Source: Clostridiales bacterium (GTDB taxonomy: Bacteria > Bacillota > Clostridia > Christensenellales > Aristaeellaceae). From it: a DNA stretch of 64,000 nucleotides. Under the pieces are notes generated by a model. It was not told where the DNA came from and did not search any database. It saw only the letters and a program-made list of their open reading frames with translations. Positions 19,723-34,344 of the stretch are shown here, piece by piece. Position 1 is the first letter of the stretch. The number at the start of each line of letters is the position of its first letter. The position numbers were made by a program, and so were the translations under genes. Where the stretch lies: contig JAIKWZ010000019.1 in assembly GCA_024684375.1 (NCBI GenBank), forward strand, positions 164,356-228,355, written 5' to 3'.

Positions 19723-22700
19723 TTACGGCGAACCGGTATCACTTGTTGAGAGCTTTACCACCATCGTGCATCCGCTGGCCGCAGACAGGTCGTAATTGCC
19801 GCTTGAACCGCTGGTTACGGATCTTTCAGGCGCAGGTATGGTATATGTACCCGGTTCCGAACCGGTACCGTTCACTTTGACAGTTATCACGTCGCCTGTA
19901 AACAATCTGTACCTAAGTGTCCAGACCCCACCGGAAACCTGTCCTTCGTCTATAGGATTTATCTGCCTTCCGAAATAATGCTCGTCTCCGCCCAGGTAGC
20001 TCACTTTGACGTCCGGGAAAAACGTCTCACCCTCAGACCACGAAACCTCATAGCCGGACAGCGCGACTTTTATCCTGAGCTTCTCTACCGTAAGGCTGCC
20101 GTCCACTGTCTTAACATTCGTAAAATAGGATGTCACATTATTTTCTTCCGCGTCCCAGATCGTATATTGGGATATATGGCTCGCGCTTGTCCCGGCATTG
20201 GTCTGGCTCCCCGTAACACCTCCTATCGTAACAAAGAAGTCGTCGCTGGGAAGTCCTGAATATGTGTAATCTTCTTCATCTCCAACGATAGGCGTGCCGT
20301 CGTAGTCCTTGCTCTGGGAACCAAGAGTGATAGTGACCTGAGTTGTATTTTTGCTCACCGTAAGCGTACCCAGCTGCTCGTTTACAGTGTAGTTCGCGCT
20401 GTTTGTACTGCCCCAGTTTATGGTATAGGTGTTTGAAGTACTGCCGACATTGGTTATCGTGCCTTTCGCGGTAACGGTCGCTGTGTCATACCCCTTAAGC
20501 CCGGTAAGCTCCGCCCCGTCAGTCTTGGTCAGCGCGGTGCCGTCATACATTTTACTCGCTGAGCCGGTCTTCACAGTCAGCTGAGCCTTGGATATCGTTA
20601 CAGTGCAGCCTGATACCGTTATATCGTAGTTGCCCGTTGTTCCGCTTACGGAACAGGTCGGATTATATGTATGTTCACCCACACCGGGGCCGCACATGGG
20701 TCCTCTGACGGTAAGCGTATCTCCCGTATTCAATTTATAATAATACAAGTGATAATTGCCGTCCGCACCGGCGTCTGTCAAACTCAGCGTTGCGCCGCTG
20801 GAAGGGCCGTTTGCGTAAGCTACGGTAGAAGACGCCCATACCCCTGATCCCATATACTCGATCGTCCTGGATTGTGCTGAAACCGTGATACGGAGCGGTT
20901 CGACAGTAAGCGTGCCTTTGTTTTTCGTAAGGTTGGTCAGTTTTGAAGTCACATCCTCCGAGCCGTAGAAGAATTTGCACTCGCTTACGACATTGTCGCT
21001 GCTGCCAGCGTTCGTCTGGCTGCCCGTGACGGCGATCGAATACGTAAACCATGACGGCGCTCCGCTTACGGTATAACCGTTTTCGGTAAGCGCGGTGCCG
21101 TCATACACCTTGCTGGCGGATTTGGCGGTGACCGTTATCGGAGCAGAGTAATCAGGCGTGACTTCGAGCGTGCCAAGAGATGGCGTGACAGTATAATTGC
21201 CTGAGCTGACGCCGCCCCAGTTTATTGAGTAAGTGTTGGCTGTACTGCCCGGATTTGTTATGGTGCCCGTCGCGGTGACGGTCACCTTGTCCGTGTCTGT
21301 TGCGGCAAGTCCCAAGCCGCCAAACGTGACGCTGCTGTTTGTCAGCGGCGTTCCGTCATAGACCTTCGAGCCGGAGCCCGTTGTGATCGTCAGCGGTCTT
21401 GGATCCACCTTGAAAGATCCGTTTGTTATGCTGGCGCTGTAGTTGGAGGACAGTGTGTCTGAGAAAATATCTACCTCGGATAGATAACCGGTCAGCGTAT
21501 GAGTTCCGGCCTGCGCATTGTATCCGGAGATAGACAGCCCAAACCCTTCGCCTTCCACAGGGGAATTATATACGTAGAGCGCACTGTTAACATTTTCTGA
21601 TGTTCCGTTAAACTGACGGCTCCTGTACGAGATCGTTTCACCCGCGACGACCAGCGTGGGCTCCGGCCAGATTGTAAATATAGAAGGAGGAACGCTCCCC
21701 GAGTATGTCATGTACGCGTTATCGCCGATTGTGAATTTGAGCTGCAGCGGCGTGACCTCAAGCGTTCCAAGTTTTTCCGTGATCGTATAGTTTTCCTCGG
21801 AAGCATCATCCCATTCTATAGTATAGGTGTTCTGCGATTTTCCTGCATTTTTTCTTTTGCCCGTAGCAGTCACGCTGACTCTCATTTGATCTTCGGCTGA
21901 CAGCCCTGTTACACTTTTGATCCCGGCTGTCAAGTCTGTACCGTCGTACACCTTGCTGGCGGAATCTGTGACAATAGTGAGCTGAGCAGGCTTAACTATC
22001 AGTTTGCCGAGAGTCTCAGATGAAATGTAGTAGTTCTCCGGGTTCGTCTTGCCCCAGGATATATCGTAGGTGTTCTCGGTGCTTCCTACGTTGATTATGC
22101 TGCCATCGGGCTTAACAGTTATTTTGTCATTGCCCTTCAGACCGCTTACGCTTGCTTTGTTGGATTTAAGCTCTGTCCCGTCATAATTCCTGCTTGCGGA
22201 GCCTGTCTTGATGGTGATAGGCGCGGGTTCGACATACACGGGAAATGTCTTTAAAGCGGAGCCCGAGAACTCAAAGTTGGATGAAGATCCCGATACGCTT
22301 ACAGCGCCTTTTAAGTTATAATTGCCTACATTGGTTCCGGCGCCTTTCATGGTAACACGAACGGTATCCCCGGTAAAGAGTTCAAATTCAAATACCGCTC
22401 CTTTGGTGTCGACGCGCTTTCCCTTTACTTTCGAGCCTGAGTGTTCACCGTTCAGGAATGTAAGGGTAGGAGTCGGCGCGGCGGCGGTCCCTGAGTAAAC
22501 GAGGGTAATGTCATCCGGAACATCGATCCTGACTTTCAGCGGCTCAACTTTTAGAGAGCCCAGATCCGCGCTGATCTTGTAGTTGCTTTCTTTCGCGTTT
22601 GTCCATTTGACGGAATAGCCGTTGCTGGTTTTGCCCGCGTTTTTGATCCGGCCAGTTGAAGAAACATCCGCTTTCTCACCGTCAACGAAACCTGTAATTG

Positions 22701-24795
22701 TCGCCTTACTGTTAGAAAGATTCTTTCCGTTATACACCCTGCTGGCAGATCCTGTCGTGACCTTAAGCGTTGCAGGGTTTATTTTAAGAGTGCCCGCCAC
22801 GAGCTTGAGATCCGGATAGTATTCCGTAACATCTTCTCCGTTTTCGTCGAAAACCTGATATCCTGTGACCCTGCTGCTGACAGTGCCGGCATCCGTCGCT
22901 TTTCCTGCCACTTTCGCGGTCAGAGTATAACCTTTTGCAAGCCCGGTAACAGTCACGCCTTTCGCGTTAAGAGGCTTGCCGTCATAGACTTTCGTTGCCG
23001 ATCGCGCGGTCACTGTGACATCGGTCAAAGCGGGAAGCACCTTTAATGTGCCCAAGTCCTCGGTGATAATGAAATTTTTCTGGTTTTCGTTGCCCCAGTC
23101 GATAGTGTAAGTGTTCTTACTTTCGCCTTGCGCAGTTCGGCTGCCGGTAGCTGTCACTTTGACGGAGTCATCTATCCTGACTTCCTTAAATTTAGCTTCT
23201 TGCGCACTAAGCGCCCTGCCGTTATAGTCTGTTATGTCTGAGTCTATGTTTATATGAGCATTTGTGAGCTCGCGCATGAGGCCGCCCGCATATTTTATGC
23301 TTACTGTCAGGCCGTCCTTAACGGTCGTCTCTTCGTCCTTGCTGGGCAGCTGACTGATTCGCTCAAGCACTTTAGCCTTATCCCAGCCGGTGTCCGCGCA
23401 TGCCTGGTCCAGCAGCTCCGGGTTATCCGCGTACAGCCGCAGGATTTGTTTTGGAATCTCGTCCTCACTGATTTTATCTACGCTGAAGGTTATGCTGTCC
23501 GCATCGTTCTCGTCGCTCAGAAGTACAGTCAGCTTTTCGCCCGCAGCCAACACGATCTGGCTGGTCTTACCGGTCAGTGGGTTCGTGCCGTGTACGATCA
23601 GTTCGCCGCTTAAACCGTAGAGGGTCTCTCCTTCCCGCTCGGACAATACCATGGATGTATTGCGCCACGGCTCCTGTTCCGTCTTACCTGAAATCACATT
23701 AAAACCGGCTTCATTGCAAGTCAGCGGTTTGCCGTCATATCTTTTCGTCGCCGAGCCGGTCCATACGGTCATGGGCGCGGGGTCAACGACCAGCTTTCCT
23801 GGAACGGTCTCAATGATGTTGAAGTGACTGGTCACGTTTTCGCCATTTTTATTGTAGATCGCGTAGGAACCGATGGGGTTCTCCACAGTTCCTGCATTGG
23901 TGACGGATCCAACGGCTGACGCGTTGATGTCAAACATTTCCGGAAGGTTATAAACCAGTATATCTCCCGGTCTGGTCAGAGGAGTTCCGTCATACAGTTT
24001 ACTCGCGCTCTGCGCAATAATCATAACCTTGCCGGTAAACTCCCAGTCGCCGTCTGCCGGGAAGTCATAGTCTTCGAACAGCTTGGGGCAAGCCGTCATG
24101 ACTCGCGTTGCCGTATTGTTATCCTCAAATTGATCCTGTAGAAACGGCGTAAGGTTTCTTTTATTTATACCGGCTATAACGGTATCCTGACCTACAACAG
24201 CGATCTGTCCAGCGTGCACTGCAAATTTCTGGCCGTTTTTCTGTGTTACTGCTGCGCTGCCTTCGAGAACCCCGAACACCGTGACTTTTTCACTCGCATT
24301 CGTCGGTGTTTGACGCGGAGTCAGTCCGTATGTTTTTGCCGCCTGCGCCGCGGGAAGGACCGATACAACGGTGATAGTCCCACGGATACCTACGGTCATG
24401 GTTGAGGTCGTTATGTCCAGGCTCTCGTTCTCATCAAGCTTTTCACGGACATCAAGGAAAAGTGTGCCTTCATTCAGCGTCAGCACCATATGGTTATCAT
24501 TCTTTTCGAATTTTACGGTGCTGTTTTGGTCTATTGACAGGATCTTCGTGCTGTCAAGGCTCACGGAAGCGGTAGACTCCGCGCCCGTACGCATAGTCTC
24601 GCCGTTTGCAAAGCGGACGTTTTCCATCACGAAGCGCGGGCTGCCCGATGCATCGAGGATCTCCACATTCCCGTCGTATCTAAGCAGGCGTATTGTTTCT
24701 GCGCTGTAACTGTCTCCCAAAGCATAAGGGAGCAAGAAGAGCACGGCGAATACAACTGCCAAAGCTAAAATGCCTTTTTGCAAACGATGCTCCAA
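19723..24795 (-). CDS. Giant secreted FecR-domain/YDG-repeat protein
   Basis: 1690 residues, TTG start seven bases after AAGGAGG. A signal peptide (LALAVVFAVLFLLPYALGD) is followed by a FecR-like domain (about 35-150) containing GETMRTGAESTASVSL and TVGIRGTITVVS. The remainder has about ten YDG-type repeats (ASKVYDGTPLT ... NTYxINWG ... NYTV ... LGTLxVxP), with about four other beta-domains between them. YDG and related MBG repeats form extended adhesin-like stalks. There is no sortase motif or membrane tail. In Gram-negatives FecR signals to an ECF sigma factor across the membrane; here the FecR domain is secreted and an ECF gene follows, so any signalling would need another link. Confidence 0.85.
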   Translation of the reverse strand: MEHRLQKGILALAVVFAVLFLLPYALGDSYSAETIRLLRYDGNVEILDASGSPRFVMENVRFANGETMRTGAESTASVSLDSTKILSIDQNSTVKFEKNDNHMVLTLNEGTLFLDVREKLDENESLDITTSTMTVGIRGTITVVSVLPAAQAAKTYGLTPRQTPTNASEKVTVFGVLEGSAAVTQKNGQKFAVHAGQIAVVGQDTVIAGINKRNLTPFLQDQFEDNNTATRVMTACPKLFEDYDFPADGDWEFTGKVMIIAQSASKLYDGTPLTRPGDILVYNLPEMFDINASAVGSVTNAGTVENPIGSYAIYNKNGENVTSHFNIIETVPGKLVVDPAPMTVWTGSATKRYDGKPLTCNEAGFNVISGKTEQEPWRNTSMVLSEREGETLYGLSGELIVHGTNPLTGKTSQIVLAAGEKLTVLLSDENDADSITFSVDKISEDEIPKQILRLYADNPELLDQACADTGWDKAKVLERISQLPSKDEETTVKDGLTVSIKYAGGLMRELTNAHINIDSDITDYNGRALSAQEAKFKEVRIDDSVKVTATGSRTAQGESKNTYTIDWGNENQKNFIITEDLGTLKVLPALTDVTVTARSATKVYDGKPLNAKGVTVTGLAKGYTLTAKVAGKATDAGTVSSRVTGYQVFDENGEDVTEYYPDLKLVAGTLKINPATLKVTTGSASRVYNGKNLSNSKATITGFVDGEKADVSSTGRIKNAGKTSNGYSVKWTNAKESNYKISADLGSLKVEPLKVRIDVPDDITLVYSGTAAAPTPTLTFLNGEHSGSKVKGKRVDTKGAVFEFELFTGDTVRVTMKGAGTNVGNYNLKGAVSVSGSSSNFEFSGSALKTFPVYVEPAPITIKTGSASRNYDGTELKSNKASVSGLKGNDKITVKPDGSIINVGSTENTYDISWGKTNPENYYISSETLGKLIVKPAQLTIVTDSASKVYDGTDLTAGIKSVTGLSAEDQMRVSVTATGKRKNAGKSQNTYTIEWDDASEENYTITEKLGTLEVTPLQLKFTIGDNAYMTYSGSVPPSIFTIWPEPTLVVAGETISYRSRQFNGTSENVNSALYVYNSPVEGEGFGLSISGYNAQAGTHTLTGYLSEVDIFSDTLSSNYSASITNGSFKVDPRPLTITTGSGSKVYDGTPLTNSSVTFGGLGLAATDTDKVTVTATGTITNPGSTANTYSINWGGVSSGNYTVTPSLGTLEVTPDYSAPITVTAKSASKVYDGTALTENGYTVSGAPSWFTYSIAVTGSQTNAGSSDNVVSECKFFYGSEDVTSKLTNLTKNKGTLTVEPLRITVSAQSRTIEYMGSGVWASSTVAYANGPSSGATLSLTDAGADGNYHLYYYKLNTGDTLTVRGPMCGPGVGEHTYNPTCSVSGTTGNYDITVSGCTVTISKAQLTVKTGSASKMYDGTALTKTDGAELTGLKGYDTATVTAKGTITNVGSTSNTYTINWGSTNSANYTVNEQLGTLTVSKNTTQVTITLGSQSKDYDGTPIVGDEEDYTYSGLPSDDFFVTIGGVTGSQTNAGTSASHISQYTIWDAEENNVTSYFTNVKTVDGSLTVEKLRIKVALSGYEVSWSEGETFFPDVKVSYLGGDEHYFGRQINPIDEGQVSGGVWTLRYRLFTGDVITVKVNGTGSEPGTYTIPAPERSVTSGSSGNYDLSAASGCTMVVKLSTSDTGSP

Positions 24796-26840: not shown

Positions 26841-27435
26841 AATCAGAAGTCAAGGACGATAGCTCTTGATTCACCGCATTTATCTGTATCTGGCAGTTGA
26901 TCCAGCATTTGACTGACATGTCGCCCTGTTTGTTTCATTTTACTCAGTGTTTCCGGTCTTATTTCAGTCCTTTGTATGCCATAATTACCTGTCCGGCCGG
27001 CGCATCGGTACCTTCCCAAAGTGTAACTGAAACACATCTAAGGTCCCCGGAGCGCCTGCACGGATTATTAGCCCGTTAACGCAAAAGGCGCGCAGTGGTC
27101 GCGTCAGATATATCCTCAACGCATAAATGGGCTTTACGCCGATGGCCTTCACATATCTTATAATACACCGCGAATTGTCTTTTGACAGTATATTACCATA
27201 AACATGAAATAAAGAAAAGCATCAGCGGTTCGTTTTTTACCCATAAGCAGATCTCTTCATGCTGTATGCTGTGGGTTCGATATAAACCTGCGATCATATT
27301 GTAAATGTCCCAGAGATTACACTTTTCACAGTGCCGCAATGGCAAAACAGGACCGTTCACTGTTCAATGAACGATCCTGCCGCACTGCATGTGAAGTATC
27401 GCCTTAAAAGCTCGGATATGATCCCTGTTCCCGGC
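26841..27435. other. Intergenic region without a convincing gene
   Basis: About 595 bases. Small ORFs here lack ribosome sites and any recognisable pattern. The only structure I see is the terminator-like hairpin at 27344-27379. Confidence 0.5.
27344..27379 (-). terminator. Terminator of the cystatin-like gene
   Basis: CAGGA-C-CGTTCA pairs with TGAACG-A-TCCTG (one mismatch, eight-base loop) and is followed on the minus strand by TTTTG. It lies 57 bases after the stop codon. Confidence 0.6.
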
Positions 27436-27792
27436 TTAATACTCGCAAAGAGCGCCAAAGTCGAAATCAGCGATACTTAGTACCTCCACGCTGCCGTCCA
27501 GTTTCTCATACAGGAACACCAGCTTGTAAGATGGCTGCGCGTCAGGCACCACTACCTTGGCCTGAGCCAGGAAGCAGTGGTTAGTCCCTGCGACGACCTG
27601 AGAACCGAGATAAGCCACGGGCACATATTCGACACCTAAAAGCTTTTCAGTTCCTTTTTCAAACAGCGCATTGTTCTCTTCAGTGATCTCATATGATTCG
27701 GAAGCTGTCCAGCCGCCCATAATAGGCGCCTCAGCGAAAGCGGTGAAAGCTATAAGCATGATTGCGATAACGACGCACAGAGTTTTTTTCAT
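27436..27792 (-). CDS. Secreted cystatin-like small protein
   Basis: 118 residues with a signal peptide (MKKTLCVVIAIMLIAFTAFA). The mature part has the three cystatin/stefin hallmarks in order: an N-terminal GG (MGGWTAS), a helix region (ENNALFEKGTEKLLGVEY), and the inhibitory loop SQVVAGTNHCFLAQA, close to the eukaryotic QVVAGTNY. Cystatins block papain-like cysteine proteases. A role against host, protozoal or competitor proteases is possible but inferred. GAAAGGAAG precedes the ATG. It is a single-gene unit with its own terminator. Confidence 0.75.
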   Translation of the reverse strand: MKKTLCVVIAIMLIAFTAFAEAPIMGGWTASESYEITEENNALFEKGTEKLLGVEYVPVAYLGSQVVAGTNHCFLAQAKVVVPDAQPSYKLVFLYEKLDGSVEVLSIADFDFGALCEY

Positions 27793-28137
27793 ATTTGTGT
27801 ACTTCCTTTCTTTATCGTACTGTCTTTTGTTATTGTTTTTACGTCCCGGTTTTTTCGCGGTGACAATAGTTTATACGTTTCTCATGCAGAGATGGCAACC
27901 GTTTATTTGTTAATATTATGGAATTTCCCAAACCTCCTGCGGCACCCGGCAGTTTTGCCAGTCCCAACGGCAGGAAGGATATGGGGTGCTTTCATGTAAA
28001 GATTCACCGGCAGTCAAGAAGCATAAGCCGGTACAAAAACCGGAATGGTTGAAAGCGTGCTCATTATTCTACAATCAAGCGGCGTCTGTATGCCGCCTTG
28101 CTTATTTGACGGTCAGTCATTAATCAGAATCCAAAGA
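27793..28137. other. Intergenic region between EamA and cystatin-like genes
   Basis: 345 bases without a supported gene. A GC-rich hairpin (CAAGCGGC / GCCGCCTTG, about 28075-28100) lies beyond the EamA stop but has no T tail. The cystatin gene promoter should be here; I could not fix it. Confidence 0.4.
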
Positions 28138-29018
28138 CTATCCGGCGTCCTTAAGCTTTTCGCTGATAACGCCAATTATCATCAATGCTCCCAAAATGCC
28201 AGGCACGCTCAGCGGCTCATTCAGTAAAAGCGCGGAAAACAACAGTGCGGATACAGGATCGATGTAACTCAGTATGGCTATTGTCTGCGTTTTTAGCCCG
28301 TCTATGCTGCCGAAATACAAAACATAGGCAATGCCGGTATGGACGATTCCCATTATAAGCAGAAGTATAACTGTGCCTGTATTAAAGTCTTCATTGCCGA
28401 GTCCGCCCGTCAAAAGCATGTATGGGATCATTGTAATCCCGGCAAATAAAAGCTGAACGATCGTTTTTTGATAAGCGTCCACTCCGCTTATGCGCTTATT
28501 GATGATCACGACAGAAGAATAGAAAACCGCGGCTCCCAGTCCCATGAAAACGCCTTGTATATTGGTTTTGGGCAAGTCTCCGCTTCCGGTCACACCGGAC
28601 ACCAGAACCATACCGACTATCGCCACAGCTGCGCAGGCCGCTTTTTTTGCCGTCAGTTTTTCGCTGAAGATTAACGGCGAAAGAATCACCACGATCGTAG
28701 GCTGCATATAATAGCACAAGGTCGCGACAGCGACCGTCGTATAGTTGTATGCTTCAAAAAGCAGGATCCAGTTTATCCCCATAAGCGCACCTGAAAGCGC
28801 AAGCCAGGTGGCAGACCGAAGCTGCAATCTTGCCGGTGCTTTTTTCTTTTCAATTGCTTAAAAGCCAAGATAAACAAACAGCCGAGTATTCCGCGCGAGA
28901 AAGCCAGAAACGCGGAAGGCAGCGGGACCGATCTGCGGAAAACACCTATCGTTCCGAAGATCAGCATGGAAGAAATGATCATTAATACGGATCTGCGATC
29001 ATTCCCTTTCTTATCCAT
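28138..29018 (-). pseudogene. EamA/DMT-family transporter split by a -1 frameshift
   Basis: Two ORFs in different frames join into one typical 10-helix EamA transporter of about 293 residues. The first (start 29018) gives MDKKGNDRRS to FKQLKRKK; the second continues with APARLQLRSATWLALSGALMG and ends EKLKDAG. The break is at a six-A run on the minus strand (28840-28845), reading AGA AAA AAG CAC. A one-base slip back at A-AAA-AAG restores the second frame exactly. This may be a mutation, an assembly error in a homopolymer, or true ribosomal frameshifting. EamA proteins export small metabolites; the substrate is unknown. Confidence 0.8.
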
Positions 29019-29200: not shown

Positions 29201-29731
29201 TCAATCATTCGCAACCACGTATTCTACCCAGGTGGAGATCGTCTGTTTGTCAAATCTGAACTCCACTTTCATCCTGTGTTTTCTGCGTTCGACTTTTAAA
29301 ATCCGGGCATCGGTTCCCAAGTCGCTGTTCGAAGCCAGCGAAAGAATACCGTCAGCTTCATTTACAGCGGTCTTGCCCAGCACTCCGTTATTCTTCAGCA
29401 GCATCATCGCGAAAGCAAGATCATTGCCCGCGAGCCTGAAACCGTTTTTTTCGTCTCCCAACAGCTTTAACACGTTCGGAACACTCCGGCGTATGGTCGT
29501 ATCGATTTCATCATCCGTAAATATAAAAACATAACCCGGCAAGAGTTTATGCACCAGATCGATCATTTTGCCGTCTTTGAAAGTATGCTGGATCTGTTTG
29601 GGGCAAAACGCTGTCCCGCCATAGAGTTGGCAGGCCATTTTTGCAACATCGTCCGAAAACTGGCTGCGGCAAAAAACACAGTAAACATTCGTCGCGCTTA
29701 ACGCCTGTTCATTAGCCCTGTCTTCGCTCAT
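29201..29731 (-). CDS. LoaP-type NusG paralogue (processive antitermination factor)
   Basis: 176 residues from the ATG at 29731, six bases after GTGAGG; the track uses 29749. The N-terminal NGN domain shows NVYCVFCRSQFSDDVAKMA, FCPKQIQHTFKDGKMIDLVHKLLPGYVFIFTDDE, and the end is a KOW-like region (DARILKVERRKHRMKVEFRFDKQTISTWVEYVV). The LPGYVFI motif is a hallmark of NusG/RfaH/LoaP. LoaP proteins load onto polymerase at a leader RNA hairpin and let it read through long polysaccharide or antibiotic operons. The divergent neighbour is a glycan export operon whose leader has a 9-base inverted repeat, so this is the likely target. Confidence 0.82.
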   Translation of the reverse strand: MSEDRANEQALSATNVYCVFCRSQFSDDVAKMACQLYGGTAFCPKQIQHTFKDGKMIDLVHKLLPGYVFIFTDDEIDTTIRRSVPNVLKLLGDEKNGFRLAGNDLAFAMMLLKNNGVLGKTAVNEADGILSLASNSDLGTDARILKVERRKHRMKVEFRFDKQTISTWVEYVVAND

Positions 29732-29924
29732 GCATAGCCTCACGTTCATTCCAGTTTTGCAATACTTTTAACGCCGATATCTTATCAGTAAGCCGCATGT
29801 TTATCAAGACAATATCTGTAAATATGCCAAATTAACTCAACAGCCAAAAAAGTCCGCCGAACGTCGCAGTTCCGACGGCATCGGCGATCGGCAGCGAGAC
29901 GAGATATTTCGGGGGCTCAGGTCC

Positions 29925-30078: not shown

Positions 30079-31278
30079 ATGTCAAGCGATAAAAATGCGA
30101 TCTTCACAGATCTTCGCCTCTTCAAGGTACTGAAATCATTTATCTGGAATATCCTTCGCCTGATCCGTCACTCTGTACAGATCTTGCGCGCCTTGAGATA
30201 TCTGTTTTTGAAAAGGACGAAGGATAGAAAGACAGTTTTTTTTATTGCAAATTCCATTACCGGCGGCGGCGCAGAGCGCGTCGCGGCAATTTTGGCTTCA
30301 GAGCTTTCATCATGTTATCATGCCATCGTCATATGCTCCGTAAAAAGTCCCTCTAAAAGCCGCTATCCCCTATCCCCAAACGTTGACTTGATTTATCTTC
30401 CGTTTTATATACTGAATGATAATACCCCGAACAGATTTCTTTCCGGATTTACCAGACTGATAAAGCGGCGGCAGAACGCCTTTGCGTCGGTCTCGCTTGT
30501 TTTCAATTCAAACGCGCTGAATATCAGTTCCAGGGCGAACGATAAAGTGATCTGCTGTGAAAGAAACAATCCTCTCAAGCACGAGAGGGATAAGGAGCGT
30601 TTCGAACTGATACAATCCATTTACGAACGCGCCGATCATGTTGTTTTTCAATCATCTATCGTCCGGGATCTGTTCAGCGAGAAGGTCCGGGAGCATTGCT
30701 CCATCCTTCCCAATCCGATCAGCGTGACCTGCTGCCGGAAAGCCGAGACCAGACACCGTATCGTGACCTGCGGCCGGCTGCATGCTCAGAAAAACCACCC
30801 CATGCTGATCCGCGCTTTTCACAGGTTTAGCCGCATTCATCCGGAATATACGCTTTCTATATATGGAAAAGGCTTCATGCAGTCTGAGCTGCAGGAGCTT
30901 ATCGATTCGTTGAGCCTTCAAAACTCTGTATTTTTGGAAGGGCGTTCCACTCACATCCATGAAGACATCGCGGATGCCGAACTGTTTGTGCTCTCAAGCG
31001 ATTATGAAGGTCTTTCAAACGCTTTGCTTGAAGCTATGATGATGGGCTTCCCCTGTATCTCCACAGATTGCGAAGGGTCAACGGATGTCATAGAAAACGG
31101 CGTCAACGGGCTGCTTGTCTCCCGCGGGTCAGAGGAAGAGCTGCTCTCAGCCATGCTTTATATGGCAGAACATGAAACGCTCAGGGAAGAAATGGGCCAA
31201 AAAGCCATGCAGACCGCGCAGCGGTTTAAAAGGGAAAAGGTCGCGGAAGAATGGAAAAACATGATCGAGACAGTATAA
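30079..31278 (+). CDS. Family 4 glycosyltransferase
   Basis: 399 residues with GT-B fold and the GT4 pattern: the N-terminal GGGAERVAAILASEL nucleotide-sugar loop and the C-terminal EGLSNALLEAMMMGFPCISTDCEGSTDVI, with the ExxxxxxxE-like acidic motif, then NGLLV. It transfers a sugar to a lipid-linked or surface glycan on the cytoplasmic side. It is the first gene of an operon with ABC-2 polysaccharide export proteins. An N-terminal basic amphipathic stretch (about 10-50) may attach it to the membrane. Sugar donor and acceptor are unknown. Confidence 0.88.
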   Translation: MSSDKNAIFTDLRLFKVLKSFIWNILRLIRHSVQILRALRYLFLKRTKDRKTVFFIANSITGGGAERVAAILASELSSCYHAIVICSVKSPSKSRYPLSPNVDLIYLPFYILNDNTPNRFLSGFTRLIKRRQNAFASVSLVFNSNALNISSRANDKVICCERNNPLKHERDKERFELIQSIYERADHVVFQSSIVRDLFSEKVREHCSILPNPISVTCCRKAETRHRIVTCGRLHAQKNHPMLIRAFHRFSRIHPEYTLSIYGKGFMQSELQELIDSLSLQNSVFLEGRSTHIHEDIADAELFVLSSDYEGLSNALLEAMMMGFPCISTDCEGSTDVIENGVNGLLVSRGSEEELLSAMLYMAEHETLREEMGQKAMQTAQRFKREKVAEEWKNMIETV

Positions 31279-32537
31279 TGATCCGACTGTCGAATGTTGA
31301 CAAAAAGTATCGTTTGGGAGAGATCGGAAGCGGGACTCTGTACCGCGATATTCAGTCATGGATAGCAGCCCGAAAAGGCCTTCCGGATCCCAACAGCAAG
31401 ATAGGACACGAGAATTTTGTCCCTGGCGAGTCGTTCTACGCATTAAGAAATATCAGTCTGTCTGTAAAAAAGGGTGAACGTCTCGGGATCATCGGCGGGA
31501 ACGGAGCCGGCAAAAGCACACTGCTTAAACTGATCTCAAGAGTGACCACGCCTTCCGCCGGAGAGATAGACCTGTACGGCAGAGTAACTTCCATGCTCGA
31601 AGTCGGCACCGGTTTTCACAGTGAGATGACCGGGCGGGAGAATATCTATCTCAACGGCGCCATCCTTGGCATGAGCAAAAAAGAGATCGACAATGTCCTG
31701 GAACAGATCATCGATTTTTCCGAGGTCAGAGAATTCATCGACACACCGGTAAAAAGGTATTCCAGCGGCATGTACGTCAAGCTCGCGTTTTCCGTTGCCG
31801 CTCACCTGAACAGCGAGATCGTGATCATGGACGAAGTGCTCGCCGTGGGCGATATCGCCTTTCAGAAAAAGTGCATACAGAAAATGCAGCAGGCAGCTCT
31901 TAATGAAGGCCGGACCATACTGTACGTCAGCCACAATATGAACACGATCCGGGAATTGTGCGACAGATGCATCGTTCTGGATCGGGGAAAACTGGTTTAT
32001 GACGGCGATGTGGAACAGGCCGTATCTCATTACAGCAAAACGCTTTTGGAAAGTCCGGATTACCGCATCGATTATTCCTCCTATTCCCGCAGAAATCAGG
32101 GATTGTCAGGCATCTGCAGGATCGAGGAAATAATCGCGAAAGAAAAAACAGTCCAAATGGGCGGCGTTCTGCCCTTCTCAGTCCGGTTTTCTGCCCGGGA
32201 AGCAAAGGAAATCAGGCTGAGGATCATGGCAGTCATGCCCTCAGGCCATATCGTCGGGATGACTTATTCCGACCCGGTAAGCCTTCCGGAAGGCAGCAGC
32301 GAAGCGGAGTTTGGGTTTGATACGGCATTCCTGGCTGCGGATGTCTATTCTCTGGATATCGCCGTCTCAAGCTACGAAAAGGATGTCGAGATACGGCACG
32401 ACTTTATCAGCCGTGCGCTTTCATTCTCGGTAGACGAAAGCGTTCGCTACTTCGGAAAGCATTGGGAAAGCCGTGCCTGGGGAAACGTGAAGCTTCCCGC
32501 TGTGAAAGTTACCGAGGTGCATATCGATGAACGGTAG
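31278..32537 (+). CDS. Wzt/TagH-like ABC ATPase of polysaccharide export
   Basis: 419 residues from the ATG that overlaps the previous stop (TAATG); the track extends nine codons upstream to 31251, which is also possible. The ATPase domain has Walker A (GIIGGNGAGKSTLLKLI), signature (KRYSSGMYVKLAFSVA) and Walker B (IVIMDEVLAVGD), typical of the Wzt/RfbE/TagH subfamily. The C-terminal 140 residues look like a Wzt-C beta-sandwich that recognises the glycan end. It pairs with the permease encoded two genes downstream. Confidence 0.88.
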   Translation: MIRLSNVDKKYRLGEIGSGTLYRDIQSWIAARKGLPDPNSKIGHENFVPGESFYALRNISLSVKKGERLGIIGGNGAGKSTLLKLISRVTTPSAGEIDLYGRVTSMLEVGTGFHSEMTGRENIYLNGAILGMSKKEIDNVLEQIIDFSEVREFIDTPVKRYSSGMYVKLAFSVAAHLNSEIVIMDEVLAVGDIAFQKKCIQKMQQAALNEGRTILYVSHNMNTIRELCDRCIVLDRGKLVYDGDVEQAVSHYSKTLLESPDYRIDYSSYSRRNQGLSGICRIEEIIAKEKTVQMGGVLPFSVRFSAREAKEIRLRIMAVMPSGHIVGMTYSDPVSLPEGSSEAEFGFDTAFLAADVYSLDIAVSSYEKDVEIRHDFISRALSFSVDESVRYFGKHWESRAWGNVKLPAVKVTEVHIDER

Positions 32538-34344
32538 CAGAAAAAAGCAGCCCTCCCCCGGTATATATCGTTTCGAAGACCTTAGCTGGAAAAAGGAACG
32601 CCTGGCGCGTACGTCGTTCCGCAGCAAGCAGGAAGCTCATTCACTGAAGCGCAGCATCAAGCACAGCGTCATGTCAGTCCTGCGCCGGAGACAGGACCGC
32701 TTCATAAGTCCCGTCCTTCTGTCGACAGCTGATGGCGGAGGTAAAATAACCGACTGCGGATACGATATGTTTGACTGCCTCTTCACAAAAATTCCCTGCT
32801 CCTGTGACATGGTTTTTTCCGCGGATATATCGGTCTGTTCTTTCCTCGAGCCCGGGCACATCACCTATCAGGAAGGTTTCGGTCTGTTCCTGAGGGATAC
32901 CATGGAGCTTGATCCGGAGACCGGATTCCCGTATTCCAACATGATGGCTGTCGGGGGATACTACGGAGGATGGAATTGCTTCGGGCGGAGCGGTGTGCTC
33001 GAAAACGATATAGATAATATAAAAAACTGTTTCCTTTACGGCAGGCAAAGCTGCTGCGATCCTTTTCAGGTCTTCCCCGATTCTCCCCGCGCTTTGCATC
33101 TGACGCTCGAACGGAGAGGGTCCGGGATACGTGCGGACATGACGGATGGATCAGGCCGGCATCTTCTGTGTCCCGATGGCACCAGAACACCCGGAACGGG
33201 CGGGTTCTCTCTTCCCGGCGACGGTAGCTGCCTGCTCCACGTTTCGGATACGCTGTTCTTCCAAAGAGATCCCAAATATCTTTACCTTGGTTTCTTTGCC
33301 GCCGGCTGCAGGATATCCGTCGATTTAGGTTCCGTGGAACTGACCCTGACCGAAAGACCCTCATCCTCCGGAGTAAAGGCGCCCTTATTCGCTTCCCCGG
33401 ATGGGAGCTGTATGGGCTTTGGCACGAGGGAAGCTCCATATGATCTGGCCACGGCGATCCGGCAGTGCCGGGAAGGGCAGGAGGTCCGTGCCCTTCCGGG
33501 ACGCTACCTGCTGAAAGAAGACCTGATCATCGAAAAAACGAACCGCGGAACCAGAGACTGCCCGAAAACCCTTAAAGGCCCGAAGAAAGGTAAGGCCGTT
33601 CTGGATTTCGGAGGTTCTCCGCACGCGCTTTATGTTCTGGGAAGTTTCTGGATAATTGACGGGCTGACGGTAACGCACGGGTTCGGCATAAGGATACAGG
33701 GAGATCACAATCATATCGTAAACTGCACGGCGGAAAACAATCTTGAGACCGGCATTCTGATACGGCATGAACGAAACGATTCTCCAAAGGAAGAATGGCC
33801 CTCCTACAATACTGTCGAGGAATGCGTGTCCCGATTCAACTGTGACGCTGCCGGCTGCAACGCGGACGGTTTTGCCTGCAAAGTGGCGTCGGGTAAAGGA
33901 AACCGATTTGTTAACTGCGTTTCCTACATGAACGCCGACGATGGGTTCGATCTGTTTACAAAAAACCGCAAGATAGGACCCGTTGAACTGATCGGATGCA
34001 AAAGCTTTCTTAACGGGTACGACCATGTCAATGGAGCTTCCCTGCATCCGTCCAACGGGAACGGGAACGGCTTCAAGCTGGGCGGCAGCGGGCTTGCGGT
34101 TAACCATTGCGTAATCCGCTGTGAGGCTTTCGGCAATAAAGGCAGCGGTTTTACAAGCAATTCCAATCCGCAGATGAATCTTCTTTGCTGCAGATCGGAA
34201 GACAACATGGGGCCGAATTATTTGTTTGACTTTTCCGGCAGAAACTCGGCGGTAAAGTACTCACTGACGGATTGTACGGATAAAAACACGGAAGGCTTTG
34301 ACCCTTTGGCATTGTTGGAGAAAATCAGCCGAAATGAAGAATAA
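32527..34344 (+). CDS. Signal-less right-handed beta-helix protein (pectate-lyase-like)
   Basis: 605 residues, overlapping the ATPase gene by 11 bases. After a basic N-terminus, residues about 85-290 form a beta-sandwich-like part (HITYQEGFGLFLRDTMELD, MMAVGGYYGGWN). From about 300 the sequence is a parallel beta-helix with PL9-like repeats: CNADGFACKVASGKGNRFVNC, NADDGFDLF, HPSNGNGNGFKLGG, GNKGSGFTSN. Known PL9 enzymes are secreted lyases acting on uronic polymers, yet no signal peptide is seen here. Placed between the ATPase and permease genes, it could trim or bind the glycan before export. Alternatively it is a structural protein. Activity is not proven. Confidence 0.7.
   Translation: MNGSRKKQPSPGIYRFEDLSWKKERLARTSFRSKQEAHSLKRSIKHSVMSVLRRRQDRFISPVLLSTADGGGKITDCGYDMFDCLFTKIPCSCDMVFSADISVCSFLEPGHITYQEGFGLFLRDTMELDPETGFPYSNMMAVGGYYGGWNCFGRSGVLENDIDNIKNCFLYGRQSCCDPFQVFPDSPRALHLTLERRGSGIRADMTDGSGRHLLCPDGTRTPGTGGFSLPGDGSCLLHVSDTLFFQRDPKYLYLGFFAAGCRISVDLGSVELTLTERPSSSGVKAPLFASPDGSCMGFGTREAPYDLATAIRQCREGQEVRALPGRYLLKEDLIIEKTNRGTRDCPKTLKGPKKGKAVLDFGGSPHALYVLGSFWIIDGLTVTHGFGIRIQGDHNHIVNCTAENNLETGILIRHERNDSPKEEWPSYNTVEECVSRFNCDAAGCNADGFACKVASGKGNRFVNCVSYMNADDGFDLFTKNRKIGPVELIGCKSFLNGYDHVNGASLHPSNGNGNGFKLGGSGLAVNHCVIRCEAFGNKGSGFTSNSNPQMNLLCCRSEDNMGPNYLFDFSGRNSAVKYSLTDCTDKNTEGFDPLALLEKISRNEE

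Follow-up and report, generated by a model that had tools for sequence, protein, structure and literature searches.

Within the window, the whole 64,000-nucleotide stretch of DNA that was analysed, from a Clostridiales bacterium of the gut (probably the rumen), we identified a gene, P0001, with a cystatin-like product. The gene and its features are:

27436..27792, minus strand: cystatin-like gene P0001, encoding a 118-aa product (open reading frame, family conservation and dN/dS)
27733..27792, minus strand: signal peptide, residues 1-20 (MKKTLCVVIAIMLIAFTAFA; read by eye, including the cleavage site)
27709..27717, minus strand: G26-G27-W28, N-terminal trunk of the putative wedge (conservation; same GGW in tick cystatins)
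27649..27681, minus strand: alpha helix, residues 38-48 (AlphaFold2 models)
27568..27600, minus strand: Q65-VVAG-TNHCFL-75, putative first binding hairpin (L1) and strand b3 (models, conservation, PDB profile matches)
27490..27507, minus strand: E96-KLDGS-101, putative second binding hairpin (L2; turn between the last two strands in the models)
27802..27810, minus strand: ribosome-binding-site-like GAAAGGAAG, 9 nt upstream of the P0001 ATG
27344..27379, minus strand: hairpin then UUUU, probable terminator (folding, z -4.6), about 57 nt past the stop codon

The GAAAGGAAG before the ATG and the stable hairpin with its U run after the stop codon make P0001 look like a single, complete gene; a simple consensus terminator scan missed the hairpin at 27344..27379, although folding shows it. 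The minus-strand orientation of the gene was not given in the original prediction. The product is laid out as a signal peptide, GGW, a short helix and then SQVVAGTNHCFL, or, in protein order, MKKTLCVVIAIMLIAFTAFA, EAPIMGGW, a helix-like stretch, YLGSQVVAGTNHCFLAQ and YEKLDGS. By eye, the signal peptide reads as KK, a hydrophobic core and AFA, with the mature part starting at EAPIMGGW, and simple pattern matching found a signal-like N terminus of the same type in most relatives, which supports the bacterial signal peptide proposed in the original prediction.

Several other features of the window were recorded. An EamA-type transporter gene (28138-29018, minus strand) appears to be split into two overlapping frames of 229 aa and 81 aa, probably by a frameshift, whether genomic or introduced during assembly. 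A NusG paralogue (29201-29749, minus strand) resembles the antiterminator LoaP (NCBIfam E 8e-14, below the cut-off) and is oriented divergently to the glycan genes clustered at 30079-34344. Positions 19723-24795 of the minus strand encode a repeat protein of 1690 aa that looks exported and contains FecR and MBG domains. We also looked for an operon partner of P0001, but no neighbour was conserved except in a single syntenic group made up of five loci. The shared ABC-transporter cluster, which belongs to a common family, was not taken as a partner.

A scan of species genomes identified 33 relatives of P0001, nearly all in Clostridia, and the genome itself encodes a paralogue (G000:C66) with 54% identity. 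Comparison with P0001 gave dN/dS values of 0.06-0.30 in nine pairs, a tenth pair being saturated at synonymous sites. Given these relatives, the paralogue, the near-invariant residues described below and the dN/dS values, P0001 is a real conserved gene under purifying selection and not a chance motif. The distribution of the family is patchy: it was found in 118 of 300 genomes and 18 of 50 genera of the taxonomic family to which this bacterium belongs, in none of the 24 genomes sampled from the rest of the order and in 4 of 399 genomes across the phylum, and a broader profile detected it in 13 of 381 genomes across the class. Carriers include genomes assembled as a single contig, G594 for example, and cultured isolates may therefore exist. 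Of the 33 relatives, at least 26 have source records whose names give a ruminant gut or the label RUG, which we take to denote rumen MAGs, and these sources fit the gut or rumen setting suggested earlier for the protein. Among 86 family open reading frames, a regular expression alone found a lipobox in 15, and simple pattern matching found two domains in about a quarter of the family's reading frames. Most members thus appear, from sequence, to be single- or double-domain proteins of Clostridia, putatively secreted or lipid-anchored, chiefly from ruminant guts. Some are fusions, joining a copper-amine-oxidase-N domain to two cystatin-like domains (L024) or a SpaA-like domain to one (L025). In some tandem members (L032, L035), the second domain has lost QVVAG or GGW and is probably non-inhibitory. 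A search of viral contigs gave no match to the family, and phage records gave a single weak match of 42 residues.

The relationship to cystatins emerged from profiles of the family. When the single protein was searched, Pfam, NCBIfam and PHROGs returned nothing relevant and PDB sequences gave no match. The Pfam cystatin model, PF00031, missed all 42 family members tested; a relative from Aureibacter scored 19.2 bits against its curated cut-off of 22.2, which is a practical and not a biological criterion, and across 391 genomes of the class the model gave sub-threshold matches in three. A profile of 42 Clostridial sequences, in contrast, had 21 matches among PDB sequences, of which 19 were cystatins (best E 0.02). 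We found signal-less relatives in Aureibacter and Persicobacter (Bacteroidota), in Bradyrhizobium and in other Bacillota, and a bridging profile combining the Clostridial sequences with some of these matched 6i1m (E 3.3e-5), 8gqq (3.1e-4) and the tick cystatin 8r28 (3.3e-4). Cystatins made up 24 of its 29 PDB matches, including the 16 best; the other five were chorismate mutases with E 0.012 or worse. An hhalign comparison of the family with four stefins extended over 81 columns with a score of 37.2, the maximum in 60 column shuffles being 16.7. Masking QVVAGTN lowered the stefin score to 15.1, which is noise level. The sequence signal therefore comes mostly from this motif together with GGW, and GGW still matched a combined cystatin set, built from PDB sequences as printed, some of them partial, when QVVAGTN was masked.

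Structure prediction pointed in the same direction. Two AlphaFold2 models of P0001 had pLDDT values of 89.7 and 94.4, the better one with a pTM of 0.85, and showed a b-a-b-b-b-b topology in which QVVAG forms the first hairpin (V67/A68) and KLDG the second, as expected if the cystatin wedge that was to be looked for in a predicted structure is present. The best Foldseek matches were cystatins with probability 1.00, among them 6i1m, sialostatin L2 and the cathepsin V complex of ricistatin, at TM-scores of 0.55-0.65, rmsd of 4-5 A and E values of about 0.005-0.05, none reaching 0.001. The predicted helix is short, at 11 residues, and the predicted fold is a cystatin topology but not a close copy. 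Together, the profile, fold and motif evidence bears out the assignment of a bacterial cystatin-like protein to positions 27436-27792.

In eukaryotic cystatins, the N-terminal segment, the QxVxG hairpin and the second hairpin together make up the wedge inserted into the cleft of papain (PMC2784779). All three elements, which by analogy with cystatins would contact the protease, are near-invariant in the P0001 family. In a 48-sequence alignment, G26 and G69 were invariant and W28, Q65, V67, N71 and G100 nearly so. Across the 52 rows of the family alignment, the trunk residues G26, G27 and W28 were conserved in 51, 46 and 50, respectively, the L1 residues Q65, V67, G69 and N71 in 50, 49, 52 and 51, and the L2 residues L98 and G100 in 44 and 51. 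A further conserved element, C-F-L-C, follows QVVAGTNH in strand b3 (precursor residues 73 and 76; Cys in 40 and 41 of the 52 rows). The pair had no parallel in the eukaryotic cystatins compared, and P0001 itself reads C-F-L-A, keeping only the first cysteine.

P0001 has three elements that characterize the cystatin superfamily (MEROPS I25): the N-terminal trunk glycine (G26), the Q-x-V-x-G hairpin (Q65-V-V-A-G69) and, in the predicted model, the b-a-b-b-b-b order. It does not fall cleanly into either class of eukaryotic cystatin. Stefins (type 1) have no signal peptide, whereas one was read by eye in P0001 and most relatives, and P0001 has neither the two disulfides in the C-terminal half nor the PW in L2 of type-2 cystatins. 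The only cysteines of the mature protein are C73 and C116, the latter outside the conserved core, and the second hairpin (family consensus E-D-L-x-G-N, E96-KLDGS-101 in P0001) carries a conserved xLxG without PW. Stefins likewise lack a Trp in this hairpin. P0001 resembles human stefins A and B (1gd4, 1stf) in size and in the order of its elements, and its SQVVAGTN is identical to that of stefin B, but the human proteins are cytosolic, without a signal peptide, and share about 19% identity with it over 81 aligned columns. The best profile and fold matches of the family were the secreted type-1 cystatin 6i1m of Fasciola hepatica and tick type-2 cystatins (8r28, 6ztk, 3lh4, 7pk4). Like these, P0001 is putatively secreted and about 95-115 aa long, with an N-terminal GG(W/Y), the GGW being identical in tick 8r28, 6ztk and 3l0r, and a QVVAGTNY-type hairpin; it differs from them in its short helix, in having NHCFLC in place of NY and in showing no evident type-2 disulfides, and identity over the fold is about 14-21%. 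The match of the binding elements to cystatins therefore stands, but their reading as specifically stefin-like needs correction, since GGW and xLxG resemble the elements of secreted type-2 (tick) cystatins no less than those of stefins.

The proteins most closely related to P0001 are bacterial and not eukaryotic. A tree was built from 27 bacterial and 6 eukaryotic domains, its rows being short, in part fragmentary and without ciliates or fungi. It placed all bacterial rows on one side (96/84), and within them the secreted group of Clostridia (98/98) sat among relatives that have no signal peptide. This nesting within bacterial sequences does not support recent transfer from a eukaryote, which such a phylogeny was meant to reveal, the eukaryotic side of the comparison being six rows. 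One signal-less relative (L093) lies between transposase genes on pNK6d, a conjugative Bradyrhizobium plasmid, a setting that hints at mobility of the bacterial family.

Because the parts of the wedge are among the least variable positions, inhibition of C1A proteases would most likely be the function of P0001. We think that P0001 is probably a secreted cystatin-superfamily inhibitor whose targets most likely lie outside the cell: the exported protein would use its N-terminal GGW, its QVVAG hairpin and its xLxG hairpin as a wedge against papain-like proteases. An alternative, which we consider improbable, is that this cystatin-fold inhibitor acts like a staphostatin, on a cysteine protease of the bacterium itself or of close relatives. 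The genome does encode PepC, the one papain-family protein found in it (PF03051 E 2e-163), but this protein is expected to be cytosolic and the inhibitor to be exported. It also encodes a secreted clan-CD protein (L116, C13/caspase-like, with a weak PF01650 match), and some cystatins inhibit legumain (C13). This protein, at G000:C32:95399-96229, has the motifs TAHGG and DCCFSGG and is a possible own target of P0001. Its gene lies about 96 kb from P0001, however, and among 36 genomes of the taxonomic family, clan-CD co-occurrence was loose (10 of 13 carriers versus 13 of 23 non-carriers). No conserved gene stands beside P0001, and other papain-family matches in relatives covered only the PepC-like C-terminal part, with two exceptions: a partial match in G005 and, in the non-carrier G043, a match over the full length. 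A legumain/C13 or C11 target in the same genome was set aside, with only the weak C13 match and no C11 peptidase found in an assembly that is 77% complete and may lack an own target. Outside targets are favoured because the only papain-type protein of the genome is the cytosolic PepC and clan-CD co-occurrence is loose.

The cystatin-like fold might instead have lost inhibition and serve as a binding or surface domain, such as an adhesin or ligand carrier, in the manner of fetuin or monellin. The tandem and fused forms (L024, L025), the forms that the lipobox pattern marks as lipid-anchored, the second domains that have lost GGW or QVVAG (L032, L035) and the conserved C-F-L-C, which has no cystatin parallel, would all suit such a role; we nevertheless regard it as unlikely, because conservation is strictest at the protease-binding wedge residues, which a structural or binding domain would not need. 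That the likeness reflects a short motif shared by chance or convergence on an unrelated fold seems very improbable: the stefin match vanishes once QVVAGTN is masked and the TM-scores are moderate, yet the motif, the N-terminal GG, L2 and the strand order agree and are predicted at the right places, and the PDB profile reaches E 3e-5 with mostly cystatins.

Bacterial stefins and cystatins as a kind have been known since 2009, when stefins were described in 17 bacterial genera, including Clostridium, and proposed to act on host proteases (Kordis and Turk 2009, PMC2784779), and a 2012 review stated that more experimental data were needed on the role of bacterial cystatins (PMC3594739); our literature search on bacterial cystatins and stefins found little beyond these two papers. 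P0001 resembles the 2009 proteins in being bacterial, in its cystatin motifs and patchy distribution, and in its expected action on foreign cysteine proteases. Compared by description only, it differs in its signal peptide and in its many lipoprotein-like and tandem relatives, whereas the short signal-less relatives L089, L101, L086, L087 and L093 (Bacillota, Persicobacteraceae and Bradyrhizobium) fit the 2009 description. The architecture seen here is unusual, and this exported, often tandem branch of bacterial cystatins seems to be undescribed.

If P0001 is a secreted inhibitor of outside proteases, candidate targets would be the cathepsins with which bacterivorous rumen ciliates digest their prey, or proteases of the host or the feed. 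The rumen ciliate Entodinium caudatum, which lives on engulfed bacteria, has numerous expressed C01A cathepsins (PMC6925433). Export, inhibition, target and benefit are what we infer for P0001, and the ecological step to ciliate cathepsins is likewise conjectural. We suggest only tentatively that widespread, unannotated, exported and often double-headed bacterial cystatins may serve rumen Clostridia as a standing defence that keeps ciliate or host cathepsins from digesting them. The family offers a compact, putatively exported and well-conserved test case that Pfam and NCBIfam miss, and its habitat is one in which cathepsin-rich ciliates that feed on bacteria are major predators. If P0001 does inhibit such proteases, it would act as an anti-digestion factor of bacterial origin, with a bearing on protozoal predation and on nitrogen loss in ruminants.
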